38,105 nucleotides of DNA from an uncultured Brachyspira sp. (GTDB taxonomy: Bacteria > Spirochaetota > Brachyspiria > Brachyspirales > Brachyspiraceae): the NCBI RefSeq assembly GCF_944388875.1, contig NZ_CALXKQ010000026.1:1-38105 (forward strand), in the 5' to 3' direction. How positions within the stretch are numbered: position 1 is the stretch's first letter; each line of letters opens with the position of its first letter. The notes beneath the pieces were generated by a model that was not told where the DNA came from, did no database searches, and saw nothing but the letters and a program-made list of their open reading frames with translations. Of this stretch, positions 12,061-22,589 are shown piece after piece. The position numbers and the translations under genes are program-made.

Positions 12061-12465
12061 TTATTTATCGTCATAATCATCATCATAATCTTCATCATAA
12101 TCATCGTCATAGTCATCATCATAATCATCGTCATCATCGAAATCATCGTCAAAATCATCATCAAAGTCGTCATCAAAATCATCTATATCATCATCATCGT
12201 AGTCGTCGTCATCATCGTCGTAGTCGTCGTAGTCATCATAGTCTTCATCGTCGTAGTCATCATCATCATCATAGTCGTCGTCAAAATCATCATCATCAAA
12301 GTCCTCATCGTCATCATCATAGTCGTCATAGTCATCATCATCATCGTAATCCCCATCGCTATAATTATCACCATCTTCTTCATCATCTTTAAACCTTCTT
12401 GTTGCAAAATAACCATTATTATTTAATAATTCATCTAATAAATTCATAGATTCTAACTCTTCCAT
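12061..12465 (-). CDS. Extremely Asp-rich low-complexity protein
   Basis: A 134-residue protein. Residues 1-25 are ordinary (MEELESMNLLDELLNNNGYF), and from about 26 to the end it is almost only Asp interrupted by Tyr, Phe and a few Glu, in repeats such as DDDYDDDDDYDD and FDDDFDDDF. The predicted charge is very negative and the chain should be disordered unless it binds cations or a basic partner. The start is supported by GGAG eight bases upstream. The DNA is a GAT/GAC triplet run, so slippage would change length without shifting frame. The opposite strand shows a His-rich ORF that is only its shadow. Possible roles are DNA mimicry, metal buffering or pairing with the basic neighbour; none is shown. 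Confidence 0.75.
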   Translation of the reverse strand: MEELESMNLLDELLNNNGYFATRRFKDDEEDGDNYSDGDYDDDDDYDDYDDDDEDFDDDDFDDDYDDDDDYDDEDYDDYDDYDDDDDDYDDDDIDDFDDDFDDDFDDDFDDDDDYDDDYDDDYDEDYDDDYDDK

Positions 12466-14973: not shown

Positions 14974-16140
14974 TTATTTTTTTAATTTAGCCTTAGCATC
15001 AGCAAGTCTGTCTAAAGCCTGTTTAACAGTATCTTCTTTTTTAGAAAAATGGAAGCGTATCAAGTTATTAGTAGGCTCTTTAAAGAAAGATGAACCAGGA
15101 ACAGCACCTACTCCTACTTTTTTAGCTAAATCATAGCAGAAGTCCATATCGCTGTCATAACCAAATTCGCTTATATCTACCATAACATAATAAGCACCCT
15201 GAGGCTCTGTAAATTTGAAATCCAAATTTCTTAAACCGTCTAAAAACATATCTCTCATCTTGGTATACTTTTCCTGCAATTCATCATAATAGGAATAAGG
15301 AAGTTTTAACCCCTCAACAGCAGCCTCCTGCAATGGAGCAGCAGCACCCACAGTAAGAAAGTCATGTATCTTTTTAGCAGCATCTACAACATGCTTAGGT
15401 CCTATTATATATCCAAGTCTCCAGCCCGTAATATGATAAGTTTTTGAAAGCGAACTGCAGCATACAGTTCTATCGAACATATCAGGTAATGATGACATAT
15501 AAATATGCTTATAAGGCTTATATACAATATGCTCATATACCTCATCAGTAATAACATAAGCATCATATTTTTTAGCCAAAGAAGCAATTATCTCCAATTC
15601 CTCCCTAGTAAAAACCTTTCCTGAAGGATTGGAAGGATTGCATAAAATCAAAGCCTTAGCATTTTGTTTGAATGCATCCTCTAACTCATTAGCATCAAAA
15701 TTAAAATCAGGCTGTCTTAACGGCACAAATATAGGATCAGCACCAGAAAGTATAGCATCAATGGCATAATTCTCATAATAAGGAGAAAATACTACAACCT
15801 TATCTCTAGGATTGCAAACCGCCATCATGGCAGCCATCATAGCCTCAGTGCTTCCGCATGTAACTACAACATTGTCAGTTGAATTAATATTATTCAATCC
15901 CATAAAATGCTTCTGTTTTTCTATTAAAGCATCTCTGAACTTCTGAGAACCCCAAGTAACCGCATATTGATGAGGTCCTTCATTAGCAACTTCTATCAAT
16001 CTGTCCGTTATAACTTTAGGCGGATCAAAATCAGGAAAACCCTGAGACAAATTGACAGCATCATACTCTATACATACTCTTGTCATTCTTCTTATGACAG
16101 AGTCTAAAAATATTTTTGTTCTTTCACTTAAATCTCTCAT
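14974..16140 (-). CDS. PLP-dependent class I/II aminotransferase, possibly methionine-active
   Basis: A 388-residue fold-type I aminotransferase, cytoplasmic. The PLP Lys233 sits in SSLSKTYHITGWRLGY. Asn171 region NPSNPSGK, the cofactor Asp199 in ITDEVYE and the substrate carboxylate Arg in LIRFHFS are present. The N-terminal NLSQGFPDFDPP is typical of the kynurenine/glutamine/methionine aminotransferase branch (KAT, YbdL), which uses bulky or sulfur amino acids. It is the last gene of the metNI operon, 34 bases after a metQ gene, which supports action on the imported amino acid: for methionine the product would be 4-methylthio-2-oxobutyrate. The substrate is inferred from context. Confidence 0.85.
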   Translation of the reverse strand: MRDLSERTKIFLDSVIRRMTRVCIEYDAVNLSQGFPDFDPPKVITDRLIEVANEGPHQYAVTWGSQKFRDALIEKQKHFMGLNNINSTDNVVVTCGSTEAMMAAMMAVCNPRDKVVVFSPYYENYAIDAILSGADPIFVPLRQPDFNFDANELEDAFKQNAKALILCNPSNPSGKVFTREELEIIASLAKKYDAYVITDEVYEHIVYKPYKHIYMSSLPDMFDRTVCCSSLSKTYHITGWRLGYIIGPKHVVDAAKKIHDFLTVGAAAPLQEAAVEGLKLPYSYYDELQEKYTKMRDMFLDGLRNLDFKFTEPQGAYYVMVDISEFGYDSDMDFCYDLAKKVGVGAVPGSSFFKEPTNNLIRFHFSKKEDTVKQALDRLADAKAKLKK

Positions 16141-16174
16141 ATAATTAACCCAGCATTAATATTATTTATTTTAT

Positions 16175-16987
16175 TTATTTCCAAGCAGGAAGATAAGAAC
16201 CTAAAAAGTTTTCGTTATAAACTTTCTCTACTATATCAGATTGATAAGCAGCTACAACTTTTTTATATAATTCATTATCTTTATCTTTAGTTCTTGCAGC
16301 TATTAAATTAACAAAAGATTTTCCGCTGTAAATAGAAGGATCATCTTTAAATATATAATCAGAACCAGGATTAAGTCCAAAATCTATAGCGTAGTTTCCA
16401 TTTATAACAGCACAAGCAACATCTGGAAGAACACCGTAAATAGCACCAGCATCCATTTCTACTATATTAAGGTTAAGAGGATTTTCTATTATATCGCTTA
16501 CAGAAGGAGTATCTCCTGCTTCTGGTCTTACTTTAATAAGTCCTGCAGCCTGTAATACTTTTAAAGCTCTTCCTCCGTTTGAAGGATCATTAGGTATTGC
16601 AACTTTATCGCCGTTTTTAACCTGACTTACATCTGTAATATTAGTAGAGTAAATATTCATAGCAGATATATAAGTATCAGCAATGGCTGTTAAATCATAG
16701 CCTTTATTTGATACTTCATCATTAAAGTATGCATAATGCTGAAAAGCGTTTAGGTCTATTTCACCGTCATTTAAAGCCTGATTAGGTATAGTGTAATCAG
16801 AAAAAGATACTAACTCAACTTTTATTCCCTCTTCTGCTAATTTTTCTACTATAGGATTCCAAATCTGATAATCAGATTCTCCAGCAAAACCAACCTTTAC
16901 AACCTGCATATCATTATTCTTGGCATTGCCGCCGCATGATAATATCAATGATGATAATATCAAAATAGATAGTAAAATTTTTTTCAT
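16175..16987 (-). CDS. metQ: MetQ/NlpA family substrate-binding lipoprotein (paralog 1)
   Basis: A 270-residue lipoprotein with signal MKKILLSILILSSLILSC and the lipidated Cys18. It is a type II periplasmic-binding-protein fold of the NlpA family that delivers methionine or related amino acids to MetNI. Family signatures are ALNDGEIDLNAFQHYAYF, IPNDPSNGGRALKVLQAAGLI and the end GSYLPAWK. Length equals that of known MetQ. It is the last of four tandem paralogs and is closest to paralog 2. A GGAG ribosome site lies upstream of the ATG. The ligand may differ from that of its sisters. Confidence 0.9.
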   Translation of the reverse strand: MKKILLSILILSSLILSCGGNAKNNDMQVVKVGFAGESDYQIWNPIVEKLAEEGIKVELVSFSDYTIPNQALNDGEIDLNAFQHYAYFNDEVSNKGYDLTAIADTYISAMNIYSTNITDVSQVKNGDKVAIPNDPSNGGRALKVLQAAGLIKVRPEAGDTPSVSDIIENPLNLNIVEMDAGAIYGVLPDVACAVINGNYAIDFGLNPGSDYIFKDDPSIYSGKSFVNLIAARTKDKDNELYKKVVAAYQSDIVEKVYNENFLGSYLPAWK

Positions 16988-17012
16988 TGTTTTTCTCCTT
17001 AAAATTAATTAT

Positions 17013-17816
17013 TTATTTCCATGTAGGTAAATAAGCACCTTTAAAATCTTCAGCATATACCTTCTCAACTTCAGCAGACTGATAAGCCTCTACAATTTTT
17101 TTGTATAATTCATTATCCTTATCCTGTGTTCTGCATGCTATCAAATTATAAAAAGAATTTCCTTCATAAATAGAAGGATCATCCCTAAATATATAATCAG
17201 CTCCAGGATTAAATCCGAAATCTATAGCATAGTTGCAGTTAATAACCGCACAAGCAACATCTGGAAGAAGGCTGTATATACTTCCTGCATCCACTTCTAC
17301 TAACTCTATATTAAGCGGATTTTCTATTATATCATTAATACTTGGAGAATCTCCTGCTTCTGGTTTTACTTTAATAAGTCCTGCAGCCTCTAATACCTTC
17401 AAAGCTCTTCCGCCATTTGCAGGATCATTAGGTATGGCTATTTTATCGCCGTTTTTTACTTGACTTACATTGGTTATATTTTTTGAATATATATTCATAG
17501 CCGAAATAAAAGTAGTGCCTATTGCCGTTAAATCATAGCCTCTTGTTTTTAATTCATTATTGAAATAAGCAAAGTGCTGAAAGGCATTTAAATCTATTTC
17601 CCCATCATTCAATGCCTGATTAGGAAGAGTATAATCTGCAAAAGAGATTAATTCTACTGTAATACCTTCTTTAGCAAGTTTTTCAATAACAGGCTTCCAT
17701 ATAGTTCTGTCTGACTCCCCTACATGTCCTATTTTTACTACAGTGTTTTTCTGTGAGTTACCCGAACATGATATAAAAATCAATACGGATATAAAAATTA
17801 ATAATATTTTTTTCAT
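17013..17816 (-). CDS. metQ: MetQ/NlpA family substrate-binding lipoprotein (paralog 2)
   Basis: About 267 residues, signal MKKILLIFISVLIFISC with Cys17 as the lipid anchor. I moved the start from 17831 to the ATG at 17816, since GGAG lies nine bases before it and the longer form adds five residues that spoil the signal peptide. ALNDGEIDLNAFQHFAYF and IPNDPANGGRALKVLEAAGLI match paralog 1 closely, and it ends GAYLPTWK. It is 25 bases upstream of paralog 1. The gap before it (17817-17957) has no terminator but holds a 12-base direct repeat, AATCATCTATAA, about 48 bases apart, so an internal promoter is possible. Confidence 0.9.
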   Translation of the reverse strand: MKKILLIFISVLIFISCSGNSQKNTVVKIGHVGESDRTIWKPVIEKLAKEGITVELISFADYTLPNQALNDGEIDLNAFQHFAYFNNELKTRGYDLTAIGTTFISAMNIYSKNITNVSQVKNGDKIAIPNDPANGGRALKVLEAAGLIKVKPEAGDSPSINDIIENPLNIELVEVDAGSIYSLLPDVACAVINCNYAIDFGFNPGADYIFRDDPSIYEGNSFYNLIACRTQDKDNELYKKIVEAYQSAEVEKVYAEDFKGAYLPTWK

Positions 17817-17957
17817 GTTGATTTTCTCCATCTTTTATTTTTTATAATTAATCATCTATAATATAAACTTTACAATTTCACTTAAATGAATATAATGAAA
17901 TCATCTATAAAATAGAAGTTTTTTTAATTCAGATATAATCAAAAACGTTTAAATAAA

Positions 17958-18767
17958 TTAATAATCAGCCATAATAAGACCATTCAATTTATTTTCATTT
18001 ATTTTATTCCTAATTTTTTCTTTATAGCTTTCAGATATACGTATATAAAGCTCATTAAACTCATCCTCATCTCTTGAAACTATTAAATTAACATAAGTAT
18101 CTGAAGCATATTTACTTGGATCATCATAATATATAATATTTTCATTATCAAAATCATGAGAATAACTATAATTTACAAAAGCAGCATCAACACTGTCCAT
18201 AATAGAATATATTTTGCTTCCTTCAGTAAGTATAAAATCTAAATGAAGATGGTTCTCTCTTATATCATCAAGTTTATAATTATACATATTATTATCATTT
18301 ATTTCTTTTAATCTTACAAAACCAATAGAGTCTAATATTTTTAAAGCTCTGGATAAATTAACACTTGATTTAGGAACAGCTATCTTAGCCCCCATAGATA
18401 TCTGACCTATATTTGTGAATACCCTTGAATACATATTCATACGGGCTATATAAGTCTTAGAAATAATAGATAAGTTATATCCGTATCTGTTAGTTTCATC
18501 TACAAAAAAAGCATAATTTTGAAAAACATTTAAATCTATATCTCTATTATCTAATGCACTATTTAAATACTGATAATCAGAAAAATAAACCGTTTCTAAA
18601 ATAACATTATTTTTTAGAAAGTCATCCTTCATAGAATCCCATATTTCATAATCATATTCTCCTACATGTCCTATCTTAACAATAATTTCATCATCATTTT
18701 TATCGTTATTACTGCATGAAAATAATAATATGGTTAATAAAATCAATATTAAACTATTTCGTATCAT
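17958..18767 (-). CDS. Divergent MetQ/NlpA-like lipoprotein (paralog 3)
   Basis: About 269 residues with signal MIRNSLILILLTILLFSC and Cys18. It is clearly related to the other three (KIGHVGEYDYEIWDSM; DLNVFQNYAFF), but the loop that is IPNDPSNGGRALKVL in the sisters is here VPKSSVNLSRALKIL, and the otherwise constant DVACAVIN has become DAAFVNY. These positions line the ligand site in the family, so the ligand is probably different or binding is lost. The start at 18767 is preferred to the GTG at 18785, which lies inside the end of paralog 4; the ribosome site is weak. Confidence 0.82.
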   Translation of the reverse strand: MIRNSLILILLTILLFSCSNNDKNDDEIIVKIGHVGEYDYEIWDSMKDDFLKNNVILETVYFSDYQYLNSALDNRDIDLNVFQNYAFFVDETNRYGYNLSIISKTYIARMNMYSRVFTNIGQISMGAKIAVPKSSVNLSRALKILDSIGFVRLKEINDNNMYNYKLDDIRENHLHLDFILTEGSKIYSIMDSVDAAFVNYSYSHDFDNENIIYYDDPSKYASDTYVNLIVSRDEDEFNELYIRISESYKEKIRNKINENKLNGLIMADY

Positions 18768-18778
18768 AAAAAACTCAA

Positions 18779-19576
18779 TCACCAAACGGCTATATAAGCA
18801 CCTTTAAAATCTTTATTATAAATATTTTTAACCTCTTCTGACTGATAAGCCTTAACTATTTTTTTATATATTTCATTATCCTTATCTTCTGTTCTTGCAG
18901 CTATTATATTAATATAATTTTTGTCAGCATAATTTGAAGGATTATCTTTAAATATTGAGTCCTCATCAGGATTAAGACCAAAATTCAAAGCAAAATTGCA
19001 GTTAATAACAGCACAGGCAACATCAGGAAGCAGACTATATATGCTTCCAGCATCAACTTCAACAATTTCAATATTCAAAGGATTTTCTGATATATCTATT
19101 AACTCTGGATTTGCAATGCTTTTATCCTTAAGTTTTATCAAACCAGCAGACTCTAATACCTTTAAAGCTCTTCCTCCGTTTGAAGGATCATTAGGTATTG
19201 CAATTTTATCTCCTTCTTTAATCTCATTAATATTAGTAATATTTTGAGAATATATATTCATAGCAGCTAAGCATGTATCAGCTATAGCGGTTAATTTGTA
19301 GCCTTTAGTTTCTACCTCATTATTAAAAAAAGCATAATGCTGAAAATTATTTAAATCTATTTCCCCATCATTTAAAGCCTGATTAGGAAGCAGATAATCA
19401 GCAAAAGATATTAATTCTATTTGTATATTTTCATTTGAAACCTGACTCATAACCTCTTCCCAAATAACCCTATCAGATTCTCCAATATACCCTACTTTCA
19501 CAATATTTGTATTTTTGCCGCTGTTTGAACAAGAAAACAAAAATATAAAACTAAGAAATAAAATAATTTTTTTCAT
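18779..19576 (-). CDS. metQ: MetQ/NlpA family substrate-binding lipoprotein (paralog 4)
   Basis: 265 residues with signal MKKIILFLSFIFLFSC and Cys16. The conserved ALNDGEIDLNNFQHYAFF, IPNDPSNGGRALKVLESAGLI and DVACAVINCNFALNFGLNP are intact, so it should be a working methionine-type binding protein anchored to the periplasmic face. It is the first of the four metQ genes and follows the dehydrogenase gene by 26 bases. The ribosome site is weak (GGGATG), so translation may depend on coupling to the gene before it. Confidence 0.9.
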   Translation of the reverse strand: MKKIILFLSFIFLFSCSNSGKNTNIVKVGYIGESDRVIWEEVMSQVSNENIQIELISFADYLLPNQALNDGEIDLNNFQHYAFFNNEVETKGYKLTAIADTCLAAMNIYSQNITNINEIKEGDKIAIPNDPSNGGRALKVLESAGLIKLKDKSIANPELIDISENPLNIEIVEVDAGSIYSLLPDVACAVINCNFALNFGLNPDEDSIFKDNPSNYADKNYINIIAARTEDKDNEIYKKIVKAYQSEEVKNIYNKDFKGAYIAVW

Positions 19577-19602
19577 AATAAGAACATCCCAATAATATTA
19601 AA

Positions 19603-20559
19603 TTACATTTTCAAAGCCAATTCATAATTCTTTTTCATAACAGCACAGGATTCATCAAATAATTTTTTCTCATCATCATTCATTTTAAGCTCTATTATCT
19701 CTTCAACCCCATTATTTCCTAAAACAGCAGGTACTGAAGCATAAACATCATTTTGTCCGTATTCTCCATTTAAATATACTGAAACAGGCAAAACTCTATG
19801 CTCATCGCAAAGTATAGCACGTGCAACTTCAGCCAAAGAAGCTCCTATCCCAAACTCTGTAGAACCTTTTCCTCCTAATACATCCCATCCGCCTCTTCTT
19901 CCTTTCGCAGCAAGTTCATTTAAATCTAATTTAGAATATTTTTCATTCTCTTTCATAAGCTCAAATAAAGGCTTTCCTGCTATAGTTACTGTTGACCAAG
20001 CTACCATCTGACTTTCTCCATGCTCTCCCAAAGAATAAGCATATATAGACCTTTGATCCACATTAATAGCCTCAGATATTGCTCTTCTTAATCTGGCAGA
20101 ATCTAATGTTGTACTTGTAGATATTATTCTTTTTGCATCATAATTTAATTTGTTTTGAAGATAATGAGTAATAACATCAGCTGGATTTGATATATTAATT
20201 ATTATACCATTAAATTTAGTTTTTTTAATATTATCGATAACATCCTTCATAACTTCTATAGTAGCACCCAAAGTATCCATTCTAGTTTGATTCATATTAG
20301 GCAATGGTCCTGCACATACCACCATTATATCAGCATCATCTATATCACTGTAGTTTCCAGATTTTACCTCTACTCTATGAGGAAGATAAACAGAAGCATC
20401 AAAAATATCCAAAGCCTGAGAAAATGCTTTTTTTGTGTCTATATCAATATAAACTATCTCTTCTGCCAAACCCTGAGAGGCTAAAGCATATCCTGCATGA
20501 GAACCAACATGTCCTGCTCCTATTAATACTACTTTTCTTCTTTTTATTGAATTATTCAT
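19603..20559 (-). CDS. L-2-hydroxyacid dehydrogenase of the lactate/malate dehydrogenase family
   Basis: A 318-residue NAD-dependent dehydrogenase. The NAD site GAGHVG with Asp in VYIDID, the catalytic pair Asp/Arg in LDSARLR and the proton donor His in GEHGESQ are all present, with Arg109 in NQTRMD. At the specificity position (102 in dogfish LDH numbering) I read Asn in PLPNMNQTR, not Gln (lactate) or Arg (malate). The substrate is therefore probably a different 2-oxo acid, as in L-2-hydroxyisocaproate dehydrogenase. Lying between metI and metQ genes and cotranscribed with an aminotransferase, it could reduce the 2-oxo acid made from imported methionine. AAGGAAAC precedes the ATG. Confidence 0.85.
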   Translation of the reverse strand: MNNSIKRRKVVLIGAGHVGSHAGYALASQGLAEEIVYIDIDTKKAFSQALDIFDASVYLPHRVEVKSGNYSDIDDADIMVVCAGPLPNMNQTRMDTLGATIEVMKDVIDNIKKTKFNGIIINISNPADVITHYLQNKLNYDAKRIISTSTTLDSARLRRAISEAINVDQRSIYAYSLGEHGESQMVAWSTVTIAGKPLFELMKENEKYSKLDLNELAAKGRRGGWDVLGGKGSTEFGIGASLAEVARAILCDEHRVLPVSVYLNGEYGQNDVYASVPAVLGNNGVEEIIELKMNDDEKKLFDESCAVMKKNYELALKM

Positions 20560-20590: not shown

Positions 20591-21271
20591 TTAATGTGTA
20601 GCCTTTTTTACTACAAGGTTTCCAATAGCCTGTATTATACCAACCAATATAACAAGAAGTATTACAGATACATATATAATATCTAATTTGTTTCTATAAT
20701 ATCCAGATTGTATAGCATAAGTACCAAGTCCGCCTGCACCTACAGCACCAGCCATAGCAGTAAGTCCTATTAAACTGATAGCAGTTATTGTAGTTCCCCT
20801 AGCTATAGGAGCTATACTCTCTTTTAAATATACCCTAAATATTATACCTATAGGGGATGAACCCATAGATTGTGCTGCTTCCACCAATCCGTAATTAACC
20901 TCAGACAATGCACTTTCAATCTGCCTTGCAAAAAATGGCACTGTACCAAATATTAACGGTATAATAGCTCCTTTCACTCCTATTGCAGTACCCATTATAA
21001 ACCTTGTAAGAGGAACCAACATAGCAAGCAAAATAATAAATGGTATTGCCCTAAAGAAGTTAATTACCTTGCTTAAAACTTCATACACCAGCAAATTTTC
21101 CATTATTCCGAATCTTTTTGTTACTATTAATAATACTCCCAAAAAACCGCCTATAAAAAACGATATTATACCCGAATAAAAAAGCATAATAAATGTCTGT
21201 ATTATACTTTGATAAAGTCTTGGCAAATCAGCCATTACATTAGGCATTAATTTATTTAGTATTTCCAGCAT
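20591..21271 (-). CDS. metI: Methionine ABC transporter permease
   Basis: A 226-residue inner membrane permease with five to six hydrophobic segments, the usual MetI size. The coupling loop motif EAAQSMGSSPIGIIFRVYLKESI (the EAA motif) that contacts MetN is clear near residues 130-152, and AISLIGLTAMAGAVGAGGLG is typical of MetI. It forms the channel for methionine uptake. It overlaps the end of metN by 20 bases, with GAGGT eight bases before the ATG, so expression should be coupled. Confidence 0.94.
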   Translation of the reverse strand: MLEILNKLMPNVMADLPRLYQSIIQTFIMLFYSGIISFFIGGFLGVLLIVTKRFGIMENLLVYEVLSKVINFFRAIPFIILLAMLVPLTRFIMGTAIGVKGAIIPLIFGTVPFFARQIESALSEVNYGLVEAAQSMGSSPIGIIFRVYLKESIAPIARGTTITAISLIGLTAMAGAVGAGGLGTYAIQSGYYRNKLDIIYVSVILLVILVGIIQAIGNLVVKKATH

Positions 21272-22304
21272 CAGATATCACCTCTATATCAACATTTTGT
21301 TCTTTTAAAAAATCTATAGCTTTTGTTATTCCGCCTTTATCTCTTTCATGCATTATAACAACAAGTCCCCCAATAAGACTATTATCTATAAGTTCAATAT
21401 CACCGAATATTATATTAGCATCCACATTGAATTCTCTTGAAACACGGGATACTAAAGCCTCAGCAACACTTTCCTTTTTATACTTAAGTCTTACTATACA
21501 CTCTCCGTTTCTTAATTTTGTTATATTATTTCCCTCTTCAACAAGGGTATAAATTTTAGATATATTTGAAGTAGTATCTATAAACTCCTGTGTTATTTTA
21601 TTTTTAGGGTTTGAAAATACTTCAAATATGTCGCCTTCTTCTATTAAATTCCCCTTATTCATAACAGCAACTCTATTACAAAGCTCTTTAACAACGTTCA
21701 TCTCATGTGTTATTACAACTATAGTAATTCCCAAATTTTCATTCAGCTTTTTTAAAAGCTTCAAAATAGAAGAAGTTGTCTGAGGATCCAAAGCACTTGT
21801 AGCTTCATCGCATAAAAGTATCTGAGGATCATTAGCCAATGCCCTTGCAATAGCAACTCTCTGTTTTTGTCCGCCGCTTAATTGAGATGGATAAACATAA
21901 GCCTTATCTTTTATATCAACTAATTCTAAAAGAGATATAACTTTCTTCTCTATTTCTTCATTTGAAAGACCTCTGTATCTTAAAGGATAAGCAACATTTT
22001 TAAATACTGTTCTTGAAGCAAATAAATTGAACTGCTGAAATATCATTCCTATTTTTTTTCTCTTTTGTCTTAATTCTTTTTGCGGCAATGATGTCAGCTC
22101 TACACCATCTAAATAAACTTTACCTGATGTAGGTCTTTCTAATAAATTTATGCATCTTACAAGAGTGGATTTGCCGGCCCCTGAAAAGCCTATTATTCCA
22201 TATATCTCTCCTTTGCCTATTTTAAGAGATACATCATTAACAGCATTAAGCTGCTTATTTTTAGCAGTTTTAAATACCTTATTCACATTCTCTAAAACTA
22301 TCAT
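21252..22304 (-). CDS. metN: Methionine ABC transporter ATP-binding protein
   Basis: A 350-residue ATPase, full length for MetN. Walker A GFSGAGKST at about 39-47, signature LSGGQKQRVAIARAL near 142, Walker B ILLCDEAT and the switch His in VITHEMNVV are present. From about 265 a NIL domain follows (VRLKYKKESVAEALVSRVSREFNV), which in other MetN proteins binds methionine and blocks transport when the cell is replete. It is the first structural gene of the operon. AGGAT lies 6 bases before the ATG. A terminator and a Met/Cys-rich leader ORF lie upstream (22385-22520), so transcription into it should be attenuated. Confidence 0.96.
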   Translation of the reverse strand: MIVLENVNKVFKTAKNKQLNAVNDVSLKIGKGEIYGIIGFSGAGKSTLVRCINLLERPTSGKVYLDGVELTSLPQKELRQKRKKIGMIFQQFNLFASRTVFKNVAYPLRYRGLSNEEIEKKVISLLELVDIKDKAYVYPSQLSGGQKQRVAIARALANDPQILLCDEATSALDPQTTSSILKLLKKLNENLGITIVVITHEMNVVKELCNRVAVMNKGNLIEEGDIFEVFSNPKNKITQEFIDTTSNISKIYTLVEEGNNITKLRNGECIVRLKYKKESVAEALVSRVSREFNVDANIIFGDIELIDNSLIGGLVVIMHERDKGGITKAIDFLKEQNVDIEVISDAGNTK

Positions 22305-22384: not shown

Positions 22385-22418
22385 TTTAAAATAAAAAAGC
22401 CGCCAATACTTGACGGCT
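22385..22418 (-). terminator. Attenuator terminator before metN
   Basis: On the minus strand AGCCGTC (22418-22412) pairs with GGCGGCT (22404-22398), with one G-U pair, around AAGTATT. TTTTTTATTTT follows. It lies 24 bases after the stop codon of the leader ORF and about 80 bases before metN, the place expected of a leader attenuator. Confidence 0.85.
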
Positions 22419-22459
22419 GGAAATTACAAAATAAAAAATAAATTATACCCTACAGCCGT
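22413..22459 (-). promoter_or_regulatory. Antiterminator pairing in the met leader
   Basis: ACGGCTG (22459-22453), inside the last codons of the leader ORF, is fully complementary to CAGCCGT (22419-22413), which is also the ascending arm of the terminator. The two structures exclude each other. A ribosome that reaches the leader stop would cover the first segment and let the terminator form; one stalled earlier would leave it free. Confidence 0.75.
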
Positions 22460-22520
22460 ATCCATCACACATCATAGTCATTTGCATTGAATTGCAGCAC
22501 ATATAATTTAAAACAATCAT
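22443..22520 (-). CDS. Met/Cys-rich leader peptide of the metNI operon
   Basis: A 25-codon ORF reading MIVLNY, then MCCNSMQMTMMC, then DGYGCRV and TAA. Six codons are Met (1, 7, 12, 14, 16, 17) and four Cys (8, 9, 18, 23), far above normal use, and they precede the antiterminator segment at codons 21-23. A GTGAG sequence lies 5 bases before the ATG at 22520; codon 7 is an alternative start. A promoter ends about 35 bases upstream. In known leader peptides (trp, his, thr, ilv) runs of regulatory codons stall the ribosome when the charged tRNA is scarce. Here the signal would be Met and/or Cys. No SAM riboswitch or T-box is visible. I know of no described example in spirochaetes. Confidence 0.72.
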   Translation of the reverse strand: MIVLNYMCCNSMQMTMMCDGYGCRV

Positions 22521-22561
22521 TAATCTCACTTATAAAATCCTAAAACCTTTAATTGTATTCA

Positions 22562-22589
22562 ATGATACACTATTATAAATAATTGTCAA
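22562..22589 (-). promoter_or_regulatory. Promoter of the metNI operon leader
   Basis: On the minus strand TTGACA (22589-22584), a 16-base spacer and TATCAT (22567-22562). The predicted transcription start at about 22555 gives a 35-base leader before the leader ORF. The -35 box is a perfect match. Confidence 0.65.

Follow-up and report, generated by a model that had tools for sequence, protein, structure and literature searches.

The contig NZ_CALXKQ010000026.1 of an uncultured Brachyspira species, a stretch of 38,105 nt that we refer to as the window, carries a short leader in front of the methionine transporter genes metN and metI (metNI). Judging from its sequence and from its homologues, this leader is very probably a ribosome-mediated transcription attenuator, with charged tRNA-Met sensed through the methionine codons of a small open reading frame (ORF). 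The evidence consists of the anatomy of the leader and its conservation, of its occurrence before methionine genes only, of its decay along with metY (the gene of O-acetylhomoserine sulfhydrylase) and of the spacing between its control codons and the RNA segments involved in the switch.

All leader coordinates given here refer to the minus strand of the window. A first-pass annotation had placed a promoter, a short ORF and a terminator with a U tract at this site, and all three are found in the sequence. The promoter P1 (22562-22589) reads TTGACA-16 nt-TATCAT and matches the consensus at 11 of 12 positions; TTGAMA...TATAMT-like promoter sequences precede the other leaders as well. The ORF was annotated as 25 codons long with six Met and four Cys codons. 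These counts are correct for a start at the ATG at 22520, but the true leader probably consists of 28 codons (22529-22443; VRLMIVLNYMCCNSMQMTMMCDGYGCRV followed by a stop codon) and starts at an in-frame GTG three codons before the ATG. The GTG is preferred because it is better spaced from the Shine-Dalgarno sequence AGGA (22538-22541), with a gap of 8 nt compared to 17 nt for the ATG, and because both GTG and AGGA are kept in two sister copies of the leader that also precede metN. The Met control codons ATG CAA ATG ACT ATG ATG (M Q M T M M) occupy positions 22472-22489, and the final ATG begins 15 nt before the sequence GGCTG, which is found in all 27 intact copies of the leader described below. 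GGCTG is part of ACGGCTG (22459-22453), the 5' arm of the anti-terminator, which lies in the final codons of the ORF. As the annotation had it, ACGGCTG is complementary over 7 bases to CAGCCGT (22419-22413). The latter segment is shared: it forms the 3' arm of the anti-terminator, and within it AGCCGT doubles as the ascending arm of the terminator. An inner anti-terminator stem joins UAUAA (22447-22443) to UUGUA (22429-22425), with 88% of cells paired and one-sided changes only. The intrinsic terminator, AGCCGTCAAGTATTGGCGGCT, spans 22393-22418 (stem 22418-22398), ends in a six-T tract, has a minimum free energy of -12.4 kcal/mol, and is conserved in the 27 copies.

Homologues were sought in 26 Brachyspira genomes by DNA search and by pattern search. 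The pattern ATGCAA-N-GGCTG-N-AGCCGTC matches 24 of the 26 genomes, the reversed control pattern none, and intact leaders number 27, distributed over 24 genomes. These leaders are 21-30 codons long and contain three to six Met codons each. Every one of them precedes a methionine gene: metY (as metYX) in 22 copies, metX in two (genomes G001 and G003) and metN (as metNI) in three. The window's genome itself has a second copy, located upstream of metY and metX. The first-pass annotation had described an attenuator of the methionine transporter operon. The transporter genes do lie downstream of the leader, but, on the distribution of the copies, the main and ancestral target is metYX and the metNI copy is confined to one clade. 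Leaders without the Met codons or without the competing pairing, which the annotation had named as evidence against an attenuator, were looked for, and all of the leaders in the 24 genomes keep both. The two genomes without an intact leader, G018 and G019, are also without an intact metY. In G018, metY is a pseudogene containing stops (L157:550-1021, G018:C19), and the decayed leader ahead of it still encodes MKAIIIMNRMQMPMLNK before a stop codon; its GGCTG has changed to AACTA, its shared arm from AGCCGTC to ATCCATC, and its terminator is lost. G019 has neither metY nor the leader. The switch elements of G018 were lost alongside metY, which indicates that the RNA switch is kept only where a gene remains to be controlled.

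Lone terminators are common and the complementarity amounts to just 7 bases, which would favor reading the site as an ordinary terminator next to a spurious Met-rich ORF, with no regulatory link between the two. The chance control for this arrangement was a 400-kb sample of the window's genome, scanned on both strands, which yielded 31 terminators and 24 pairs of a short ORF and a terminator. None of the 24 pairs in the sample has at least 5 Met codons and none has complementarity of at least 6 bases between the end of the ORF and a terminator arm; the identical scan run on the window recovers the leader site with its 7 complementary bases. The arrangement of the leader is more than chance. 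With nothing comparable in the control, with 27 conserved copies located at methionine genes only and with the decay of the leader alongside metY, the spurious reading is extremely improbable, and we regard it as refuted in practice by the comparative data.

The pattern of conservation distinguishes the part of the leader that is constrained as a reading frame from the part constrained as RNA. Of the 27 homologues, 26 have the MQM block, ATGCAAATG, and the remaining copy, in G017, retains ATGCAA only. Aligned insertions and deletions 5' of MQM are multiples of three, and the ORF is therefore held in frame up to the Met block. Farther downstream, the alignment of the 27 copies shows little or no variation in GGCTG, in AGCCGTC and in the two halves of the terminator. 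GGCTG is read in frame 0 in 19 copies, where it gives (D/Y)GC, and in frame 2 in the other 8, which end in ..MMAV or ..TAA. Since this motif is invariant but read in varying frames, it is the RNA rather than the peptide that is conserved there. Changes at codon positions 1, 2 and 3 number 132, 54 and 182, respectively, a modest third-position excess that we do not use as main evidence of coding, and the codon differences among the leaders comprise 83 synonymous and 198 non-synonymous ones.

The spacing of these elements is consistent with control by the position of a ribosome. The distance from the first base of the last upstream Met codon to GGCTG is 15 nt in 17 copies, 17 nt in 5, 18 nt in 2 and 20 nt in 3, and the three copies with the 20-nt spacing also have two AUG codons running into GGCTG. 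Counted from the first base of this motif, the stop codon follows at a distance of 7-12 nt in the 27 copies. The footprint of a bacterial ribosome reaches about 12 nt ahead of the codon in the A site. Consequently, a ribosome waiting at the last Met codon would leave GGCTG free, and a ribosome at the stop codon would cover it. The two hairpins were annotated as mutually exclusive, and this description holds: the pairing is conserved in the 27 copies and a ribosome at the stop codon could reach the 5' arm. In masked folding, all 27 copies adopt the anti-terminator as their minimum-energy fold if the ribosome is placed at the last Met codon and the transcript ends at the shared arm, and all 27 are predicted to form the terminator if the ribosome is placed at the stop codon.

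From these observations we infer that the ribosome stalls within the leader, that the RNA switches between the two hairpins, and that the signal is the supply of charged tRNA-Met. RNA polymerase would start at P1 and a ribosome would start translation of the 28-codon leader. With ample methionine, the ribosome would run to the stop codon and cover ACGGCUG, leaving CAGCCGU free for the terminator, and transcription would stop near 22393. When charged Met-tRNA is scarce, the ribosome would stall on the Met codons (MQM..MM) with its leading edge just short of ACGGCUG, which would then pair with the newly transcribed CAGCCGU; the terminator would not form and metNI would be transcribed from P1. 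The synthetase that charges the elongator tRNA of methionine charges the initiator tRNA too, and methionine starvation should therefore affect initiation and elongation of the leader together.

Several observations weigh against the attenuator as just described. When the complete RNA is folded with a ribosome stalled at the last Met codon, the terminator has the lowest energy in 22 of the 27 copies, that of the window included, so that the anti-terminator would have to win kinetically; in the two sister metN leaders the anti-terminator is the more stable of the two structures even if no ribosome is present. The arms of the anti-terminator and terminator show compensatory double changes in 0 base pairs and one-sided changes only. 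The comparison across Brachyspira that the first-pass annotation proposed thus found the Met codons kept but no covarying hairpins; the arms are almost invariant, and the structure is therefore backed by conservation and not by covariation. At metN, a second promoter, P2 (22350-22377, minus strand; TTTACA-16-TATAAT), lies directly behind the terminator and permits expression that ignores the switch. As P2 lies past the terminator, attenuation would govern only the transcripts from P1, which are a part of metN transcription. Finally, the conservation of the peptide extends beyond the Met codons (M/L-x-C-L-MQM), and 25 of the 27 leaders have a Cys codon upstream of MQM.

The conservation of the peptide could point to nascent-peptide arrest, in which xCLMQM would arrest the ribosome in response to methionine, S-adenosylmethionine (SAM) or another small molecule, and the arrest rather than codon hunger would set the switch. 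TnaC is an arrest peptide of this sort that responds to tryptophan. The non-Met residues N, C and Q are indeed conserved between the metY and metN leaders. However, the spacing within the peptide varies (CLMQM as opposed to CNSMQM), nothing but MQM is common to the metX leaders of G001 and G003 (..FSMMQMRF..) and the other leaders, and G017 no longer has the second Met of this block. Moreover, arrest triggered by a surplus of methionine would have the wrong sign for genes of uptake and synthesis. We consider arrest quite unlikely.

The upstream Cys codon raises the question of which amino acid is sensed. According to the first-pass annotation, the position of the ribosome on the Met and Cys codons chooses the hairpin; spacing and conservation support this for Met, but Cys is probably not sensed. 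A leader that senses cysteine, or cysteine and methionine jointly, would agree with the Cys codon upstream of MQM, where a stall would free the anti-terminator as well, and both cysteine and sulfide are near the reaction that MetY catalyzes. On the other hand, the Cys codon within the anti-terminator is gone in the 8 frame-shifted copies, and this variation in the frame of GGCTG removes that codon as a sensor. No other Cys codon occurs in G001 and G003, and in nearly all copies it is a Met codon that stands at the distance of about 15 nt from GGCTG at which the footprint fits; furthermore, all target genes are methionine genes. Sensing of cysteine, alone or jointly, is accordingly very unlikely, and methionine is likely the amino acid to which the attenuator responds.

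The history of the metN copy can be reconstructed from the locus itself and from the MetN tree. In nearly all other Brachyspira species, the only promoter of this region is the TTGACAGATAT...TATAAT-like sequence directly before metN, and P2 is this ancestral metN promoter. In the MetN tree, the three genomes whose metN is preceded by a leader group together as one clade (support 97/87), and the window's genome is the sister of B. alvinipulli (MetN 92% identical). On this evidence the metN leader is a clade-specific duplicate of the metY leader, and the simplest history would be a single duplication of the metY leader along with its promoter to a site upstream of the old metN promoter. At metN the module would thus add a methionine-regulated layer above P2.

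The module appears to be restricted to the genus. Across 296 Spirochaetota genomes the covariance model found it only in Brachyspira, where no further strong site was detected. The weak matches that were inspected are not leaders: G194, from another family (E-value 0.006), and the additional Brachyspira matches G000:C1 and G000:C6 are plain terminators after genes. The other weak matches in Brachyspira have E-values of 0.2-1. Among 33 regions upstream of metY from other phyla, outside Brachyspiraceae, none has a Met-rich ORF, and the three Brachyspira controls in that scan were positive. No convincing Met-rich leader before metY was found in near relatives outside Brachyspira; one Met-containing frame in such a position (L167) was rejected, as it resembles a ThiS-type protein. 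A second Met-rich leader precedes a divergent metY in G001 (L165) and in G003 (L164). It encodes MIKNLFNLSNIASCKFYFSFAFSMMMRVVAR and MSSFISLNLLNNASCVFSFSLSMMMRVCAR, respectively, each followed by a stop codon, and has a conserved GCGCG hairpin at its end and no clear U-tract terminator. This leader may be a Met-codon switch in its own right, and of a different kind.

Two known RNA regulators of methionine genes were looked for in these genomes and not found. The SAM-I riboswitch (RF00162) and the T-box (RF00230) both gave no match in the 26 Brachyspira genomes, and positive-control genomes gave matches for each. Rfam models gave no relevant match in either the window or the metY loci and, in the window, none at the gathering score; a match to rseX (E-value 0.31), below that score, was taken as chance.

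Attenuation by leader peptides is a textbook mechanism, classical for tryptophan or histidine. The trp, his, leu, thr and phe leaders likewise consist of a short ORF with many codons for the amino acid of the downstream pathway, an anti-terminator in the final codons, a shared arm and an intrinsic terminator, and the distance from the control codons to the anti-terminator is the same as in the Brachyspira leader. The Brachyspira leader differs from them in its Met codons and its spirochaete host, in having no sequence or Rfam match to them (Trp_leader, His_leader and others), and in the protector (1:2) hairpin, which would give termination in the absence of translation; folding predicts it for no more than about half of the copies, that of the window included, and it is not conserved. 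The S-box (SAM-I) and T-box elements at met genes of Firmicutes exert the same control by transcription termination on genes of the metY, metX and metNIQ type, but they bind SAM or tRNA directly. A survey of Actinobacteria described candidate Cys leader peptides before sulfur assimilation genes and no RNA element at methionine operons (PMC1262725); these are also leader peptides for a sulfur-containing amino acid, with consecutive Cys codons close to the stop and no report of a terminator hairpin, in contrast to the combination of Met codons, anti-terminator and terminator in Brachyspira. According to the attenuator survey of Naville and Gautheret 2010, leader peptides were found only in Proteobacteria and Actinobacteria, to which Bacilli were then added (PMC2965389). 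The His leader peptides of Bacilli are another case outside the former two phyla, probably of independent origin, but for a different amino acid and in a different phylum, and the main text of that survey mentions no spirochaete and no metN or metY case. In Xanthomonas, methionine feedback based on the 5' untranslated region has been described as mainly translational (PMC6230763). In line with the statement of the first-pass annotation that no such attenuator was known in spirochaetes, we found neither a methionine leader-peptide attenuator nor any spirochaete example in the open-licence papers searched. As far as this literature shows, the mechanism is known from the classical attenuators, and the amino acid and the phylum are new.

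The genes that follow the leader in the window, all on the minus strand, begin with metN (21252-22304), which encodes the ATPase of a methionine ABC transporter with a NIL domain (best model TIGR02314, below its cut-off; PF00005, PF09383), and the permease gene metI (20591-21271; NF008049 just below its cut-off; PF00528). The rest of the metNI cluster (14974-20559) holds an L-lactate-dehydrogenase-family gene, four MetQ-type lipoproteins, the first of which is metQ-like at 18779-19576 (PF03180), and a class I/II aminotransferase that has methionine-aminotransferase models among its better matches. It is possible that the enzymes of the cluster provide a route from 2-hydroxy or 2-oxo analogues to methionine. 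Elsewhere in the window, also on the minus strand, an ORF at 12061-12465 encodes a protein made up largely of Asp repeats.

Taken as a family, the leaders would probably constitute a Met-specific attenuator system that controls methionine synthesis throughout the genus, in place of a SAM riboswitch, T-box or MetJ, and that was copied once onto the transporter operon; the basal G001 and G003 may have a different RNA switch with a second Met-codon leader at the divergent metY. The metN copy clearly exemplifies the spread of a regulatory module to a second operon by duplication, and the Brachyspira leader allows switching by codon hunger to be tested for methionine. In this intestinal genus, where the SAM-I riboswitch and the T-box were not found, the leader is likely the main control of methionine synthesis, and it is probably the ribosome itself that reports a shortage of methionine, by means of a tiny Met-rich reading frame and an RNA on/off switch.
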